From the IMG/VR virus record IMGVR_UViG_3300024257_000039, positions 1 to 31,424 of that record: a stretch of 31,424 bases of DNA; one strand, written 5' to 3'. Under the pieces are notes generated by a model. The model saw only the letters and a program-made list of their open reading frames with translations, searched no databases and was not told the origin of the DNA. Made by a program: the position numbers and the translations under genes. Below are positions 13,574 through 31,292 of the stretch, piece by piece. The DNA is from a virus. How positions within the stretch are numbered: the first letter of the stretch is position 1; each line of letters starts with the position of its first letter.

Positions 13574-13671
13574 TAAATGCGAATGAAACAGATTTACGTT
13601 TGTTTATTATTCTCAACTGCAAATGATAATGATTATTGTTTACATATACAAGGACAAACGAGAATGATAAT
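13574..13671. repeat. Outlying copies of the 17-bp repeat
   Basis: Three copies lie out of phase with the main array: a degenerate one at 13574 (TAAATGCGAATGAAACA), a near-perfect one at 13620 (CAAATGATAATGATTAT) and one at 13655 (CAAACGAGAATGATAAT). A reverse-orientation partial copy may lie at 13603-13619. Confidence 0.6.
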
Positions 13672-13677
13672 GATTTA

Positions 13678-13813
13678 CAAATGAGAATGATTATCAAGTG
13701 ATACCCAGTATCAAATGAGAATAACTATCAAATGCGAGTGATTATCAAATAAGAATGAGTACCACCTGCGACCCATTCTCACCTGGGAATGACTCCTATA
13801 TGCGAATGATTCT
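13678..13813 (+). repeat. Eight phased 17-bp tandem repeats (iteron-like array)
   Basis: Units begin at 13678, 13695, 13712, 13729, 13746, 13763, 13780 and 13797, with no insertion or deletion between them. The consensus is CAAATGMGAATGATTAT. Units 1, 3 and 4 are closest; units 2, 6 and 7 are the most diverged. Short direct repeats of this length and phase are typical of initiator-binding iterons, but the core also resembles Fur boxes. Confidence 0.85.
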
Positions 13814-25246: not shown

Positions 25247-26797
25247 ATGCCTAGTCAAATAACACAACTTAATATGAACGGTATCAATAAGGACATTAGT
25301 TCTTATGAGCTACCGCCCACTGTATGGTCAGATGGTAATAATGTACAGTTTGATAATGATAAGACTAGTAAGGTATTAGGTCACGAACAGATATTTGGTA
25401 CACCACTAGGTGCTCCTTACTGGCTACTATATCACGATACAATTGCCAGTGACTACTGGTTATATCCTACCCTTACTAAGATTAATAAAGTAAATAAGGC
25501 AGGCTCTACCTCTACACATACAGACGTAACTAGAACTTCTGGTGGTGACTATTCAGCTACTGCACAAGGTGGGTGGAACGGTGGTGTCTTAGGTGGTGTT
25601 GCTATTCTTAATAATGGTGTAGATGTACCACAGATGTTAGGTGAGAGTCCTACTTATTGTCAAGACTTAAGTAACTGGACTAGTGGTCATACAGCACAAG
25701 TTGTTAGACCATTCAAGAGATTCCTGGTGGCGTTGGATAAGACTGAGTCGGGTACTAGATACCCGTTCAGGGTACACTGGTCACATCCAGCAGAAGGTGG
25801 TACAGTACCAGTAACTTGGGACTCAAGTGATGCTACTAAGGATGCTGGCTATGTAGACCTATCACAAACTAATGGTTGGGTTAAAGACTGTTTACCTCTT
25901 AAAGATACAAACATCATATACAAAGAAGATTCAGTATGGGCTATGGATTATTCAGGTGGACAATCTATCTTCTCATTCCGTCAGATATTTAATGATGCTG
26001 GTATCCTAGGTAGAGAGTGTGCTAAGTCATTTGAAGGTGGTCACTTTGTGGTTGGTCTTGATGATGTGTATACTCACGATGGGCAGTCAAGACAATCAAT
26101 TGTAGATACACAAATTAGAGATGAGTTATTTAATTCACTACACCCTGTTTATAAAGAGCGTACTTTTGTAGCACCAGACTATAAGAATAATGAGATGTGG
26201 ATATGTTTTGTATCTCAAGACAATAACACAGATGCTTTTGCAGATAAGGCTTTTGTGTGGAATTGGAGAAACAATACCTGGTCCAAGAGAGATTTACCTA
26301 ATGTTAGTTATGCTGCTTGGGGTACTGTAGATACTACAGACTCTGCAGCGTGGACTAACGGTACTACTTGGGCTGCTACAACTGTAGCCTGGAACAAACC
26401 TATTAGACAACAGATGTTATTTGCAGATGTTAACAACTCTAAGATATACCTACAAGGCAGTACTAATCAGTTTGATGGCACTAGCTTTAAGTCTTGGGTG
26501 GCTAAAGAGGATATGGCACTAGGCACTTCATCTAATAAATCAGTAGATAAGATTGTACCTATTATTGAAGGTACTGGTAGTGTTGACTTTTATATTGGTT
26601 ATAAACAAATACCCAAACAAGCAACTACTTGGAAAGGTCCTTATACATTCACACCAGGTATACATTCAGATATTCCTGTCAGAGCTACAGGAAAGTATAT
26701 TGGTATTAAGGTAGAGACAGAAGACTCTAATGGCTGGTCATTAGATAGCTTAGAAATTCATTGGAAACCTTCAGGTAACAGAGGTTCAGGTGTCTAA
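25247..26797 (+). CDS. Tail nozzle/stabilisation-like structural protein
   Basis: The 516-aa product is probably a main tail component below the adaptor. The N terminus has the pattern GINKDISSYELPPTVWSDGN and VQFDNDKTSKVLGHEQIFGT, shared with phage proteins annotated as stabilisation or nozzle proteins. The body is Trp/Gly-rich beta structure with repeated blade-like segments (NEMWICFVSQDNN, WNWRNNTWSKRDLPNVSYAA). AAGGA lies 6 nt before the ATG. The name rests on recalled patterns and position. Confidence 0.75.
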   Translation: MPSQITQLNMNGINKDISSYELPPTVWSDGNNVQFDNDKTSKVLGHEQIFGTPLGAPYWLLYHDTIASDYWLYPTLTKINKVNKAGSTSTHTDVTRTSGGDYSATAQGGWNGGVLGGVAILNNGVDVPQMLGESPTYCQDLSNWTSGHTAQVVRPFKRFLVALDKTESGTRYPFRVHWSHPAEGGTVPVTWDSSDATKDAGYVDLSQTNGWVKDCLPLKDTNIIYKEDSVWAMDYSGGQSIFSFRQIFNDAGILGRECAKSFEGGHFVVGLDDVYTHDGQSRQSIVDTQIRDELFNSLHPVYKERTFVAPDYKNNEMWICFVSQDNNTDAFADKAFVWNWRNNTWSKRDLPNVSYAAWGTVDTTDSAAWTNGTTWAATTVAWNKPIRQQMLFADVNNSKIYLQGSTNQFDGTSFKSWVAKEDMALGTSSNKSVDKIVPIIEGTGSVDFYIGYKQIPKQATTWKGPYTFTPGIHSDIPVRATGKYIGIKVETEDSNGWSLDSLEIHWKPSGNRGSGV

Positions 26798-27506
26798 TAG
26801 ATATGTACCCTCACCAGTACCTAACAATACTGAAAACTTAGCTAGTTACTTACAAGAAGAACTGAAGAGAATATCAGAGGCTACTAATAATATATCTGAT
26901 GGACACTTGGATAAAGCACACGTAGAACCACCGAGACCTAGAGCAGGTGATATTAGATATGCTGATGGTTCTGATTGGAATCCTGGACAAGGTGGTAACT
27001 TATATTATTATAATGGTACAGAGTGGAGAGCTTACACAGGTGGTTCAGGTGCTGGTGACTTTGCACAGATAGATGATACGACTATACATACAGCAAGCTC
27101 AGTAGATACACCAACAGCAATTACTTGGAATACTGTGCCATATTCACAAGGCATAAGTGTTAACTCAACAGATACATCTAAGATAGAGTTTACAAATAGT
27201 GGTAAATATTATATGCACTTCTCTTGCTTGTTGGAATCTAACAGCAGTAGCAATAAAGAGATATGGATATTCCCTAGGATTAATGGTACAGATGTTGATG
27301 GTTCTACTATATATCATACACTAGCAGCTAACGGTCATAAACGTACTTTATCTAAAGGTGGTATATTTGATGTAACCGCAGGTGATTATTTACAGGCTAT
27401 GTTTGCAGTGGATGATACAAACTTAAGATTAACGACACAAGCAGCAACATCCTTTGCCCCTTCTGCGCCTAGTACATCTATAGAGATTATACAACTAAGC
27501 CAATGA
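26790..27506 (+). CDS. Trimeric fibre-like protein with jelly-roll-type C terminus
   Basis: The 238-aa product starts at GTG (MSNRYVPSPVPNNTENLASY) and has a helical N-terminal anchor (LQEELKRISEATNN), a Gly-rich linker (WNPGQGGNLYYYNGTEWRAY), then about 130 residues of beta-strand pattern (IEFTNSGKYYMHFSCLLE, DYLQAMFAVDD). The C terminus looks like a C1q/TNF-type trimer, as in head or tail fibres. The start overlaps the nozzle gene by 8 bp and the stop overlaps the next start. Confidence 0.75.
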   Translation: MSNRYVPSPVPNNTENLASYLQEELKRISEATNNISDGHLDKAHVEPPRPRAGDIRYADGSDWNPGQGGNLYYYNGTEWRAYTGGSGAGDFAQIDDTTIHTASSVDTPTAITWNTVPYSQGISVNSTDTSKIEFTNSGKYYMHFSCLLESNSSSNKEIWIFPRINGTDVDGSTIYHTLAANGHKRTLSKGGIFDVTAGDYLQAMFAVDDTNLRLTTQAATSFAPSAPSTSIEIIQLSQ

Positions 27507-27913
27507 TACAAGGGATAACATCTAAGTTTGTAGAACCTGCTTGGGAATATGCAGAAGAATATATAGTTGATGCACTCAAGCACGGCATAGGTGAGTACCT
27601 TCCAGAAGATATTAAGCAGGCGTGTAAAGAACAAAGGATGCAGCTTTGGATTAAATATGAAGATGAAGAAGTTAAAGGTGCATTCGTAACACAGATATTA
27701 AACTACCCTCAGATGAAGATACTATTAGTATTACTGTTAGGTGGAAATGATTTTATAAAATGGAGAGATGAAGTAGATGAAGTATTACTTAAATTTGGTA
27801 AAGAACACAATTGTAAATTTGTGGAATTCTTTGGGCGTAAGGGATGGACTAAATTCCTTAAAGACATTAATTATAAAGAGCAAGTGAGAATGCTCTCAAA
27901 GGAGATAGTATGA
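27503..27913 (+). CDS. 136-aa protein, possible GNAT-like internal protein
   Basis: The product begins MIQGITSKFVEPAWEYAEEY and ends with EFFGRKGWTKFLKDINYKEQ. A C-terminal 'person, same position, change of mind' pattern of this kind occurs in small GNAT-fold phage proteins such as T7 gp13, but the acetyl-CoA motif is not clear and the call is tentative. ATGA overlaps link it to both neighbours, so it is co-translated with virion genes. Confidence 0.65.
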   Translation: MIQGITSKFVEPAWEYAEEYIVDALKHGIGEYLPEDIKQACKEQRMQLWIKYEDEEVKGAFVTQILNYPQMKILLVLLLGGNDFIKWRDEVDEVLLKFGKEHNCKFVEFFGRKGWTKFLKDINYKEQVRMLSKEIV

Positions 27914-28704
27914 GTAAAGGTGGTGGTGGTTCAGAGACTACAGTAGCAGAACCTTGGGCTGGAGCACAGCCATATATTAAGAAAGGTTACGAAGAGGCAT
28001 CAGGTATTTATGATAAGTTTAGTCCACAATTTTATGGTGGTCAAACACAGGCATCATTCAGTCCTGACCAATTAACTGCACAAGCAGGTGTGAGAGACTG
28101 GGCAACTAAAGGTGCACCTAATGTAATGAACCCTGCATTATCTGCATACAAGTATGGTACTGGTGGTCAGGTATTGGATGTGGCTAACAATCCTTACGTA
28201 AGAGGTATGGCTAGTCAAGCAGCTAAGGATGCTTATGGTCAATTAACCCCACAGCTTGCAGGTATCCGTAGTGGTGCTATTCAATCAGGTGGTTATGGTG
28301 GTGGTAGACAAGGTATTGCAGAAGGATTAGCTATTGGTGGTGCAGCAGATGCAGCAACTAAGGCAGCTGCTAATATCTATGGTCAAGCATATGGTCAAGG
28401 CCTAGGGCATCAAGCACAGACACTAGGTCAAACAGGTGCTCTTATTGGTGCAGGCTTCGACCCATACAAAGCATTAGGTTCTTCTGGTGGACAACAACAA
28501 GCTAGAGAACAGGCACTTATTGCAGATGCACAAGCTAAGCACCAGTTCCAACAGAACTTACCTTATGAGAGACTTAAGCAGTACACTGGTTCTATTGGTG
28601 GTACCTCGGGTCTACTAAAAGGTGCTGGTACAAGCACGGCTCCTGGTCAATCTACACTTGGGCAGTTGGGCGAGGTAGCTAAAATATACTCAATCTTTAA
28701 ATAA
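27910..28704 (+). CDS. Gly/Ala/Gln-rich internal virion (ejection-type) protein
   Basis: The 264-aa product begins MSKGGGGSETTVAEPWAGAQ and is rich in Gly, Ala and Gln (KDAYGQLTPQLAGIRSGA; AAANIYGQAYGQGLGHQAQT). Such composition and location, before another large virion protein, are typical of proteins that leave the head with DNA. No enzyme motif is seen. The start overlaps the previous stop as ATGA. Confidence 0.7.
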   Translation: MSKGGGGSETTVAEPWAGAQPYIKKGYEEASGIYDKFSPQFYGGQTQASFSPDQLTAQAGVRDWATKGAPNVMNPALSAYKYGTGGQVLDVANNPYVRGMASQAAKDAYGQLTPQLAGIRSGAIQSGGYGGGRQGIAEGLAIGGAADAATKAAANIYGQAYGQGLGHQAQTLGQTGALIGAGFDPYKALGSSGGQQQAREQALIADAQAKHQFQQNLPYERLKQYTGSIGGTSGLLKGAGTSTAPGQSTLGQLGEVAKIYSIFK

Positions 28705-28712
28705 GGAATAGT

Positions 28713-31292
28713 ATGGCAGAGAACACACAATCACCCGTCACTATTGATAGTGCTCAGTCACTTATAAACCTTGCTAATAATACACAGCCTATACAACAAC
28801 CATATCAGTATGGTAACTTAGGTCTAACAACCTCTGACTACAGTCTATGGGGTAGTAAAGGTAATCCTTATATGACAGGTGGTCCTGGATATAACCCAGG
28901 TACTAGATGGGGTACTCCTATTAACCCACAACCAATAGCACCAATTGCTCCTCCATCTAATGGTGGTGGTGATAGCAGTCCTATTCCTGATTGGGTAGAC
29001 CCTAGCACTCCTATATATAATGAGGATGGCTCTGAGTATGACCCTAAGTTTGATGACTACCCTTGGCAAAACTCTAAGGTTTTAGGTGATTTAGCACCAG
29101 GTGCTGGGCTAGCATATGGCTTAATTAATGGCAGAATAGATAACCCTTATGGTGAGGGATATGCAAGACTACCGTGGTACGAAGGTTCAGCAGGTGGTGG
29201 TTATGGCTATACTGAAGAAGGTTATGACCAGTATGCTCCTGGGGATGTAGACAGGGGAATCTACTCTAACTACTATGATGCTAATGGTAATTTAGTATCT
29301 GAGCGTGGTTGGGATGATTCGTTCGATGACTACAATACTGGTGACAACTGGGCTAATACTGGCTTCTGGGAAGGTATGGGTAATATTATTGGTGGGCGTA
29401 CTTGGGATGGTTTAGAAGAGCCTGCTACATTTGGAGACCCTGCCAGTGACTTAGCTAAGCAGTCAGATGCAGCTATTACACAGGCAGAAGCAGCTAAGCA
29501 AGCAGAGAAACAGGCAGTGGCACAGGCTAAACTTGATGAGATATCTAAGTATACTGGAATGCTTCAAGGAGAGTTTGATGCTCAGATGGCAGCACAGGAA
29601 GACTTAAATGCTGGGCAGATTGAGTTAATGACTCAGATTAAAGGCGATATGCAACGAGACTTTGGTGACTTCACTACACAGAACAGTCAACAAATGGCAC
29701 AAATGGCAGCTGAGAATGCCAGTATGTTTGACTCTATTGAAGAGTACAGGGCCTGGCAATTAGATACGGATGCTCATCAACAATCTTGGATGGAGAACCA
29801 GTTCAAAGACCAAGCAGCTACACAGAATGATTTAAATAGTACACAGACTGACTTAATGAATCAAATTGCTATGGATATGCAAGGTACTTATGGTGAGTTC
29901 TCAGGACAGATGGGTGAACAGTTAGCTAATATGGCAGCTGAGAATGCGTCTATGTTTGACAACTTTGCTGAGTATAAGCAATGGATGGGCGAGTCATTTA
30001 CTACACTAGAGAGTGGTCTTAATGAACAACTAGCACAACAGGCAGCTGTTAATGAAGGTCTTAATAGTAATCAGATTGACCTTATGAATTCTATTGCAGA
30101 AGATATGCGTAATGATTATGGTGACTTTGAGAGTGGTATTAATGGTCAGTTAGAGCAGATGGCAGCTGAGAATGCCAGTATGTTTGATAGCTTAGAGGAG
30201 TACCAACAGTGGATGTCTGATAACAACGCTACAGCTCCTGCAACCCCTAGTAATCCTCCTCCTTCTACTGTAGCTGATGCTGTTAAAGCAGGTAAGCCTT
30301 TCGGTAAAGAGGGTGATGATACTTGGTCTCCTGATGGTAAGAATGTATATCACGGACCAGGACATAACTGGAATACCCCAGACTCTGAGAACAAAGCCCC
30401 TCCAGGCACAGTGACTCCTCCCCCTTCCTCAGGTGGTGATGATGGTTATGGTGATAGTTCTGGTGGTGGCGGAGGCTGGGAAGGCTCAGATGCTCACTCA
30501 GATATGGATGAAGACTCTGGTTGGTCAGGTGCAGACAGTGACTTTGATGACAGCGATTCAGGTGGTGGTGACTCTGGTGGCGGAGGTGGTGGTTGTTTCA
30601 TAGCAGACACTTTAGTTACAGACTCCACTGGTAAAGATAAAGCCATATCTGAATATAAGATAGGTGATAGTGTTATGTCTATAGATGGCAAGACAGCCAA
30701 CAAAGTTAAATATATTGAAGTTATGTCTTGGGATGATGAATATGAACTGTATTCTCCAACAACAAAACTCAAGCCATTCATTACTAAGAATCATCCTATT
30801 AAGGTTGAAGGTAAATGGGTCAGTGCTGATTTAGATTATACAGAAAGAAACCACCCTTGGATTGATGCTGTAGATATTGATACACCTGTCATTAAGAAAG
30901 GTAAAGGTATTGTAGTTTACAACTTATGGGTTGATGGTGACAATACATATACTGTAAATGGCTATGACACAGAGACATTAATAGGTGATGGTGGTGTTGT
31001 CAGACAAGGACTAGAGTATGGTAATATTAATATGGAAGATTTTAAGAACATTATAAAAAGCTCATTGTCTTCCACACCTGAAGTTACATATGGTATGCAC
31101 ATTCTTAATATGGCTCTTGCCTTCATTACAAATAAAAAGGCTAATGGGTTTATACTAGATGTAGTATTAGGTAAAAGGAAATTTATACCACTTGATTTAT
31201 TAATATACTCGGTAGGTAAAACAGCTATACTACTTAAAAACAAAGATACACAAATGAACCTAACTAACAAACTAATACCTCAAAGGAGATAA
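28713..31292 (+). CDS. Large virion protein with three 76-aa repeats and C-terminal Hint domain
   Basis: The 859-aa product has four parts. Residues 1 to about 250 are Pro/Gly/Tyr/Asp-rich. Three repeats of exactly 76 residues follow, each with MAAENASMFD (starting at 331, 407 and 483). Then comes a Ser/Gly/Asp-rich linker ending in a glycine run. From C628 a Hint domain begins: CFIADTLV, then KIGDSVMSIDGK, ITKNHPI (His) and YNLWVDGDNTYTVNGY. The His-Asn pair that ends inteins is absent, so cleavage rather than splicing is expected. About 105 residues with hydrophobic patches follow. AAGGA lies 7 nt before the ATG. Confidence 0.88.
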   Translation: MAENTQSPVTIDSAQSLINLANNTQPIQQPYQYGNLGLTTSDYSLWGSKGNPYMTGGPGYNPGTRWGTPINPQPIAPIAPPSNGGGDSSPIPDWVDPSTPIYNEDGSEYDPKFDDYPWQNSKVLGDLAPGAGLAYGLINGRIDNPYGEGYARLPWYEGSAGGGYGYTEEGYDQYAPGDVDRGIYSNYYDANGNLVSERGWDDSFDDYNTGDNWANTGFWEGMGNIIGGRTWDGLEEPATFGDPASDLAKQSDAAITQAEAAKQAEKQAVAQAKLDEISKYTGMLQGEFDAQMAAQEDLNAGQIELMTQIKGDMQRDFGDFTTQNSQQMAQMAAENASMFDSIEEYRAWQLDTDAHQQSWMENQFKDQAATQNDLNSTQTDLMNQIAMDMQGTYGEFSGQMGEQLANMAAENASMFDNFAEYKQWMGESFTTLESGLNEQLAQQAAVNEGLNSNQIDLMNSIAEDMRNDYGDFESGINGQLEQMAAENASMFDSLEEYQQWMSDNNATAPATPSNPPPSTVADAVKAGKPFGKEGDDTWSPDGKNVYHGPGHNWNTPDSENKAPPGTVTPPPSSGGDDGYGDSSGGGGGWEGSDAHSDMDEDSGWSGADSDFDDSDSGGGDSGGGGGGCFIADTLVTDSTGKDKAISEYKIGDSVMSIDGKTANKVKYIEVMSWDDEYELYSPTTKLKPFITKNHPIKVEGKWVSADLDYTERNHPWIDAVDIDTPVIKKGKGIVVYNLWVDGDNTYTVNGYDTETLIGDGGVVRQGLEYGNINMEDFKNIIKSSLSSTPEVTYGMHILNMALAFITNKKANGFILDVVLGKRKFIPLDLLIYSVGKTAILLKNKDTQMNLTNKLIPQRR
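29582..30230 (+). repeat. Three tandem 228-bp coding repeats
   Basis: The marker ATGGCAGCTG recurs at 29703, 29931 and 30159, each 228 bp apart, and encodes the same point of a 76-residue unit. Each unit runs from a Leu-Asn-x-x-Gln segment through AENASMFD to an EYxxW motif. Protein similarity is higher than DNA identity. Outer edges are approximate. Confidence 0.8.

Follow-up and report, generated by a model that had tools for sequence, protein, structure and literature searches.

The window analyzed here is the whole 31.4-kb stretch of an IMG/VR virus record, which also encodes terminase, portal, and scaffold genes and belongs to a LUZ24-like podovirus with a Hint-domain gene beside its DNA-ejection genes. 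This gene (28713..31292; plus strand, as for its two neighboring genes and the protein features located below) is an open reading frame with an ATG start and without an internal stop, and its 859-aa product consists of a carrier part (residues 1-627) followed by a Hint-containing module (residues 628-859). Immediately upstream lies a DNA-ejection-protein homologue (27910..28704; PHROG 4287, E 6e-19), and a virion structural protein encoded at 25247..26797 (PHROG 3287, E 3e-126) is 37-40% identical to its counterparts in LUZ24-like Pseudomonas phages. On the related contig L002, the product of the second gene past the Hint-gene orthologue is homologous to internal virion proteins (PHROG 6958/342); together with the ejection-gene neighbor in the window, this places the Hint protein within an internal/ejection cassette, and the gene neighborhood suggests that it is a virion protein. 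A 17-bp tandem repeat (AATGAGAATGATTATCA, 5.6 copies) occupies window positions 13663-13758, in the gap between leftward and rightward gene blocks.

The carrier part contains a conserved motif, YQYGNL..TTSDYSLWGSKGNPY (residues 31-53; 28803..28871), that is common to orthologues downstream of the ejection gene and is retained at the loci nearest to the window as the short form YGxxL..Y.LWG...NPY. The three 76-aa repeats that the initial annotation had reported upstream of the Hint domain are present at residues 275-350 (29535..29762), 351-426 (29763..29990), and 427-502 (29991..30218), with pairwise identities of 45-49% and a self-similarity score of 363, whereas 200 shuffles reached 58 at most. 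An acidic, glycine-rich linker follows (residues 572-627; 30426..30593), ending in six glycines, and the predicted scissile bond would lie after G627. Across 53 viral loci, the gene next to the ejection-gene relative varied greatly in length and content, and the window carrier is a hypervariable protein; the Hint module was found at none of these 53 loci in the DNA examined there. The closest orthologue of the window gene, present on two contigs (L002:12949-14598 and L101:7795-9444; BLASTP E 3e-19, N-terminal part), has a poly-Gly run and behind it, instead of Hint, a CFI-box-like domain that begins with Ser rather than Cys and matches NF041770 below its cut-off (E 1.5e-4). The slot behind the glycine run is exchangeable.

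In the window protein, this slot holds a Hint domain at residues 628-755 (module positions 1-128; 30594..30977), as delimited by Pfam, an AlphaFold model, and structure matches. Its first residue, Cys628 (Cys1; 30594..30596), is the predicted nucleophile; it is the sole Cys of the protein and stands directly behind GGGGGG. Pfam PF01079 (Hint) matched from residue 626 (E=2.3e-5) and Vint also matched (E 0.0021), both below the Pfam cut-off. The block-B TxxH motif is T691-K-N-H694 (30783..30794), and the Hint fold ends in NGYDTETLIGDGG, where T753-E754-T755 (30969..30977) align with the x-His-Asn of inteins and type-A BILs. The two observations from which the initial annotation had started, a Hint domain at Cys628 behind a glycine run and the lack of a terminal His-Asn pair, are thus borne out.

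The initial annotation had further proposed structure prediction of residues 628-760 as a check on the fold. Since conservation within the module extends through the last ~100 residues, the true unit is 628-859 rather than 628-760, and prediction for this longer unit (29-sequence alignment; mean pLDDT 88.8, pTM 0.80) yielded a beta-rich Hint fold over approximately positions 1-130, with helices from position 134 onward. In VIA-align, residues 1-131 of the model corresponded to Hint structures, with BIL2 6y75 ranking first (Z 15.3; 2.1 A, 122 residues), and the model also matched BIL 2lwy (Z 12.6), Vint 8r2c (Z 11.8), and hedgehog 1at0 (Z 11.3; 113 residues at an rmsd of 2.7); all 50 structural matches listed for the model were Hint proteins. 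A GDGG motif and the helical C-terminal extension (residues 758-859; 30984..31289) are conserved in the module family. Modeled alone, the extension reached moderate values only (pLDDT 70, pTM 0.49), and a structure search with it gave no convincing match, the 23 chains returned reaching Z 5.9 at most; this result does not show a new fold.

Relatives of the module were reached through patterns and profiles. A tblastn search of phage records with the whole window protein gave no match, and pattern scans of IMG/VR with the single sequence gave no relatives; the first relative, L057, came from a poly-Gly-Cys pattern scan of IMG/VR (GGG-C-F-x-A-x-T) that returned 93 stretches, of which 80 loci were read. 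Most of these loci had Hint domains in phage ORFs, with a VHN ending in some poly-Gly-Cys-Hint groups and not in others. Phage contigs in IMG/VR commonly contain such fusions, many with HN and many without, and the rarity that the initial annotation had attributed to the arrangement is not supported. One further HN-less poly-Gly-Cys-Hint family, of ~480 aa (TAAGFG...GGGCFIAGT...NILNA), occurred at L010, L014, L017, L022-L024, and ~25 similar loci, and had no tblastn match among cultured phages. L057 is 38% identical to the window protein from Gly-Cys on, with similarity continuing past the end of the Hint fold. A profile of these two sequences recovered 39 loci, and a second scan with an enlarged alignment recovered 80, overlapping the first set. 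Cys1 lies outside the search patterns (VYNLWVD and GD[GNH]T[YF]xVNG), so that its conservation does not stem from the search itself.

The loci are environmental contigs with near-duplicates among them; about 70 copies were distinct, almost all of them from viral contigs, and 71 were aligned. Every one (71/71) has Cys1, Phe2, and the block-B His, 70/71 have the block-B Thr, and Cys1 is the only invariant Cys of the module. Position 42 is nearly always acidic (E in 65 and D in 3 of the 71). A His occupies the penultimate position in 19/71 copies, whereas His-Asn occurs in just three, the weakest matches (L267-L269), which we regard as ordinary Hint domains rather than as family members. At position -1, only 38/71 copies have Gly and most of the rest have D, E, R, or S, which makes the poly-Gly run dispensable. 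In all 28 complete distinct copies, the module lies at the protein C terminus and measures 210-233 residues, and the Hint domain and helical extension together form one defined module of ~220 aa. As judged from sequence comparison, the module is under purifying selection, with dN/dS of about 0.05-0.39 between relatives and 0.17 between the window and L154 copies, the latter with dS near saturation. No PHROG family corresponds to the module, neither it nor the other poly-Gly Hint group tried gave cultured-phage matches of use, and no description of it was found in the open-access PMC literature.

The proteins that carry the module are diverse. DUF4815/PHROG 358 tail-region proteins account for 42 copies, baseplate-hub-like proteins for 8, and two further carrier groups for 7 and 5; the rest comprise an MSGGGKGG podovirus protein, the window protein, and singletons that include one Burkholderiales contig. 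Two unrelated podovirus ejection-cassette proteins are among the carriers, and no homology was detectable between carrier groups. L158, L177, L173, and L175 were found to be homologous to the DUF4815 proteins and were merged with them; the first carrier count was therefore too high, and the number of carrier switches on the module tree was not used. In L184, L185, and L186, the C-terminal ~550 aa of a DUF4815-like ORF hold two or three tandem Hint domains, HN-ending copies preceding the HN-less module, and at the end of a Burkholderiales MAG contig (L193:1-1026) the module terminates a poly-Pro/poly-Gly stalk, and the ORFs nearby look plasmid-like.

Homology across carriers mostly starts at the module edge. 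Of 172 cross-carrier alignments, 76% begin within 3 residues of Cys1, and the remainder begin further upstream, in linkers. L154/L155 holds the nearest copy, with 64% identity to that of the window, the window and L154 pair in the module tree with support 100/100, and BLASTP homology of L154 runs from C628 onward only. Contig L155 has the same cassette as the window: a PHROG 3287 protein, a homologue of the window ORF at 26790-27506, a PHROG 22172/7642 protein, the Hint protein, and an ejection-protein homologue. Nevertheless, the PHROG 3287 proteins of L155 and the window share only 20% identity. Identity of 64% that starts exactly at Cys628, compared with 20% in a neighboring virion gene, indicates that the module moved between phages, more recently than the window and L155 phages diverged, and the module edge coincides with the predicted cut site. 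Because it ends many unrelated phage proteins, the module looks like a mobile self-processing tail.

In Hint chemistry, the first N-S acyl shift requires Cys1 and the block-B residues, and C-terminal cleavage requires HN (PMC4031507, PMC7664689). The module family has kept the residues of the first shift and lacks HN. We consider it likely, on the strength of sequence and predicted fold, that this mobile Hint module with its extension is cleavage-competent and undergoes N-terminal autocleavage between G627 and C628 by hydrolysis or by transfer to a nucleophile. The initial annotation had predicted the same junction, which gains support from the near-total conservation of Cys1, Thr, and His in ~70 relatives and from homology that begins exactly at Cys628. 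The 232-residue module has been joined, at or beside the cleavage junction, to a hypervariable ejection-cassette protein. In the mechanism we propose, C628 would attack the carbonyl of G627 in an N-S acyl shift to form a thioester, which would then be resolved by water or another nucleophile, releasing the carrier (residues 1-627, with its acidic, glycine-rich tail) from the module. Water would be the simplest acceptor and a recruited molecule a possible one, and the extension may orient the nucleophile that resolves the thioester, or it may serve in docking. A Hint fold and conserved residues are not proof of activity, and cleavage itself, like its timing, its role, and the virion location, is an inference.

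Conservation of Cys1, Thr, and His could in part serve folding, and the Hint fold might be catalytically idle and remain uncut as a structural cap, chaperone, or docking domain. Such a function would suit a C-terminal position on long virion-type proteins, where assembly or trimerization caps are common, and it would agree with the CFI-box-like domain that takes the module's slot in the closest orthologue. We nevertheless regard this explanation as unlikely, since it accounts neither for a Cys1 without exception in the family and the accompanying block-B Thr and His nor for the stop of homology at the junction, with Cys1 as the sole invariant Cys. Far less probable still is a degenerate remnant of a once-splicing intein or BIL under neutral drift. 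The absence of a terminal HN from a Hint fold and the penultimate His of some copies would be expected of such a remnant, but it is hard to reconcile with purifying selection, with the conservation of catalytic residues and of an extension foreign to inteins, and with the many carriers reached.

A special case of autocleavage would be a conjugase resembling hedgehog Hog, in which a recruited lipid, amine, or virion protein resolves the thioester; the carrier C terminus would then be covalently modified, and the helical extension would be the region that recognizes the adduct. In outline only, the module matches the Hog layout of a Hint domain followed by a recognition region (PMC2362128), and its G-C-F junction, lack of HN, and conserved extension of ~80-100 aa are in keeping with this idea, as is the nearly invariant acidic residue at position 42 (Glu669 in the window protein), a candidate counterpart in the strand region of hedgehog D46, which activates the sterol. 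However, the register of Glu42 and D46 is not fixed by alignment, the extension has no detected homology to the sterol-recognition region, and plain hydrolysis is simpler. We hold conjugation to be a tentative and rather unlikely elaboration of the autocleavage reading.

The most familiar Hint domains are those of inteins, hedgehog proteins, and secreted bacterial toxins. A splice-dead, cleavage-ready Hint domain with its own extension, swapped among unrelated phage structural proteins and joined to them at the predicted cut site, suggests a modular route to the maturation or chemical modification of virion-protein ends in phages. An unlikely reading is that podoviruses and T4-like myoviruses share a counterpart of hedgehog processing, in which the mobile module, with its extension as recognition region, would cut between Gly and Cys and join the freed C terminus of a virion or ejection protein to a lipid, a cell envelope component, or a second protein. 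Detection of an adduct would change the view of how hedgehog-type protein conjugation arose.

With its Hint fold (from the model and structure search), Cys1, and block-B TxxH, the module belongs to the HINT superfamily. It is not an intein, as there is no C-terminal His-Asn (T-E-T instead) and no C-extein with a +1 nucleophile, the carrier ending with the module, and it is not a BIL of type A, as the C-terminal His-Asn is missing. By motif content it resembles type B BILs, with a Hint fold, an N-terminal Cys, blocks A and B, and no C-terminal intein motif; it differs in its conserved helical extension and its C-terminal position on phage virion-type proteins. BILs occur in hypervariable regions of nonconserved proteins (PMC7765530, PMC4031507). 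The best structural match, BIL2 of Tetrahymena BUBL1 (6y75, 6tmm), differs in being eukaryotic, in ending on an Asn (N143, which the structure carries in mutated form), and in the absence of a comparable extension from the solved chain. Vint (8r2c) is likewise of Hint type without an intein ending, and its structural alignment reaches model residue 162. Vint domains are fused to VWA domains in eukaryotes (PMC2362128), and the window protein has no such domain upstream of the module (no Pfam VWA match at E up to 1). CFI-box-CTERM (NF041770) is also a C-terminal module behind a glycine run, and takes the same slot in L002/L101, but is an unrelated domain of ~69 aa. The hedgehog comparison drawn in the initial annotation stands as a fair analogy, by which the released end could also be linked to another molecule. 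Sequence alignment of the module to hedgehog fixes only residues 1-30, and the module is structurally nearer to BIL2 and is not a secreted animal or protist protein. Hog consists of a Hint domain and then a recognition region (PMC2362128), and the phage module likewise has a Gly-Cys-Phe start, TxxH, no HN, and a conserved C-terminal region behind the Hint domain.
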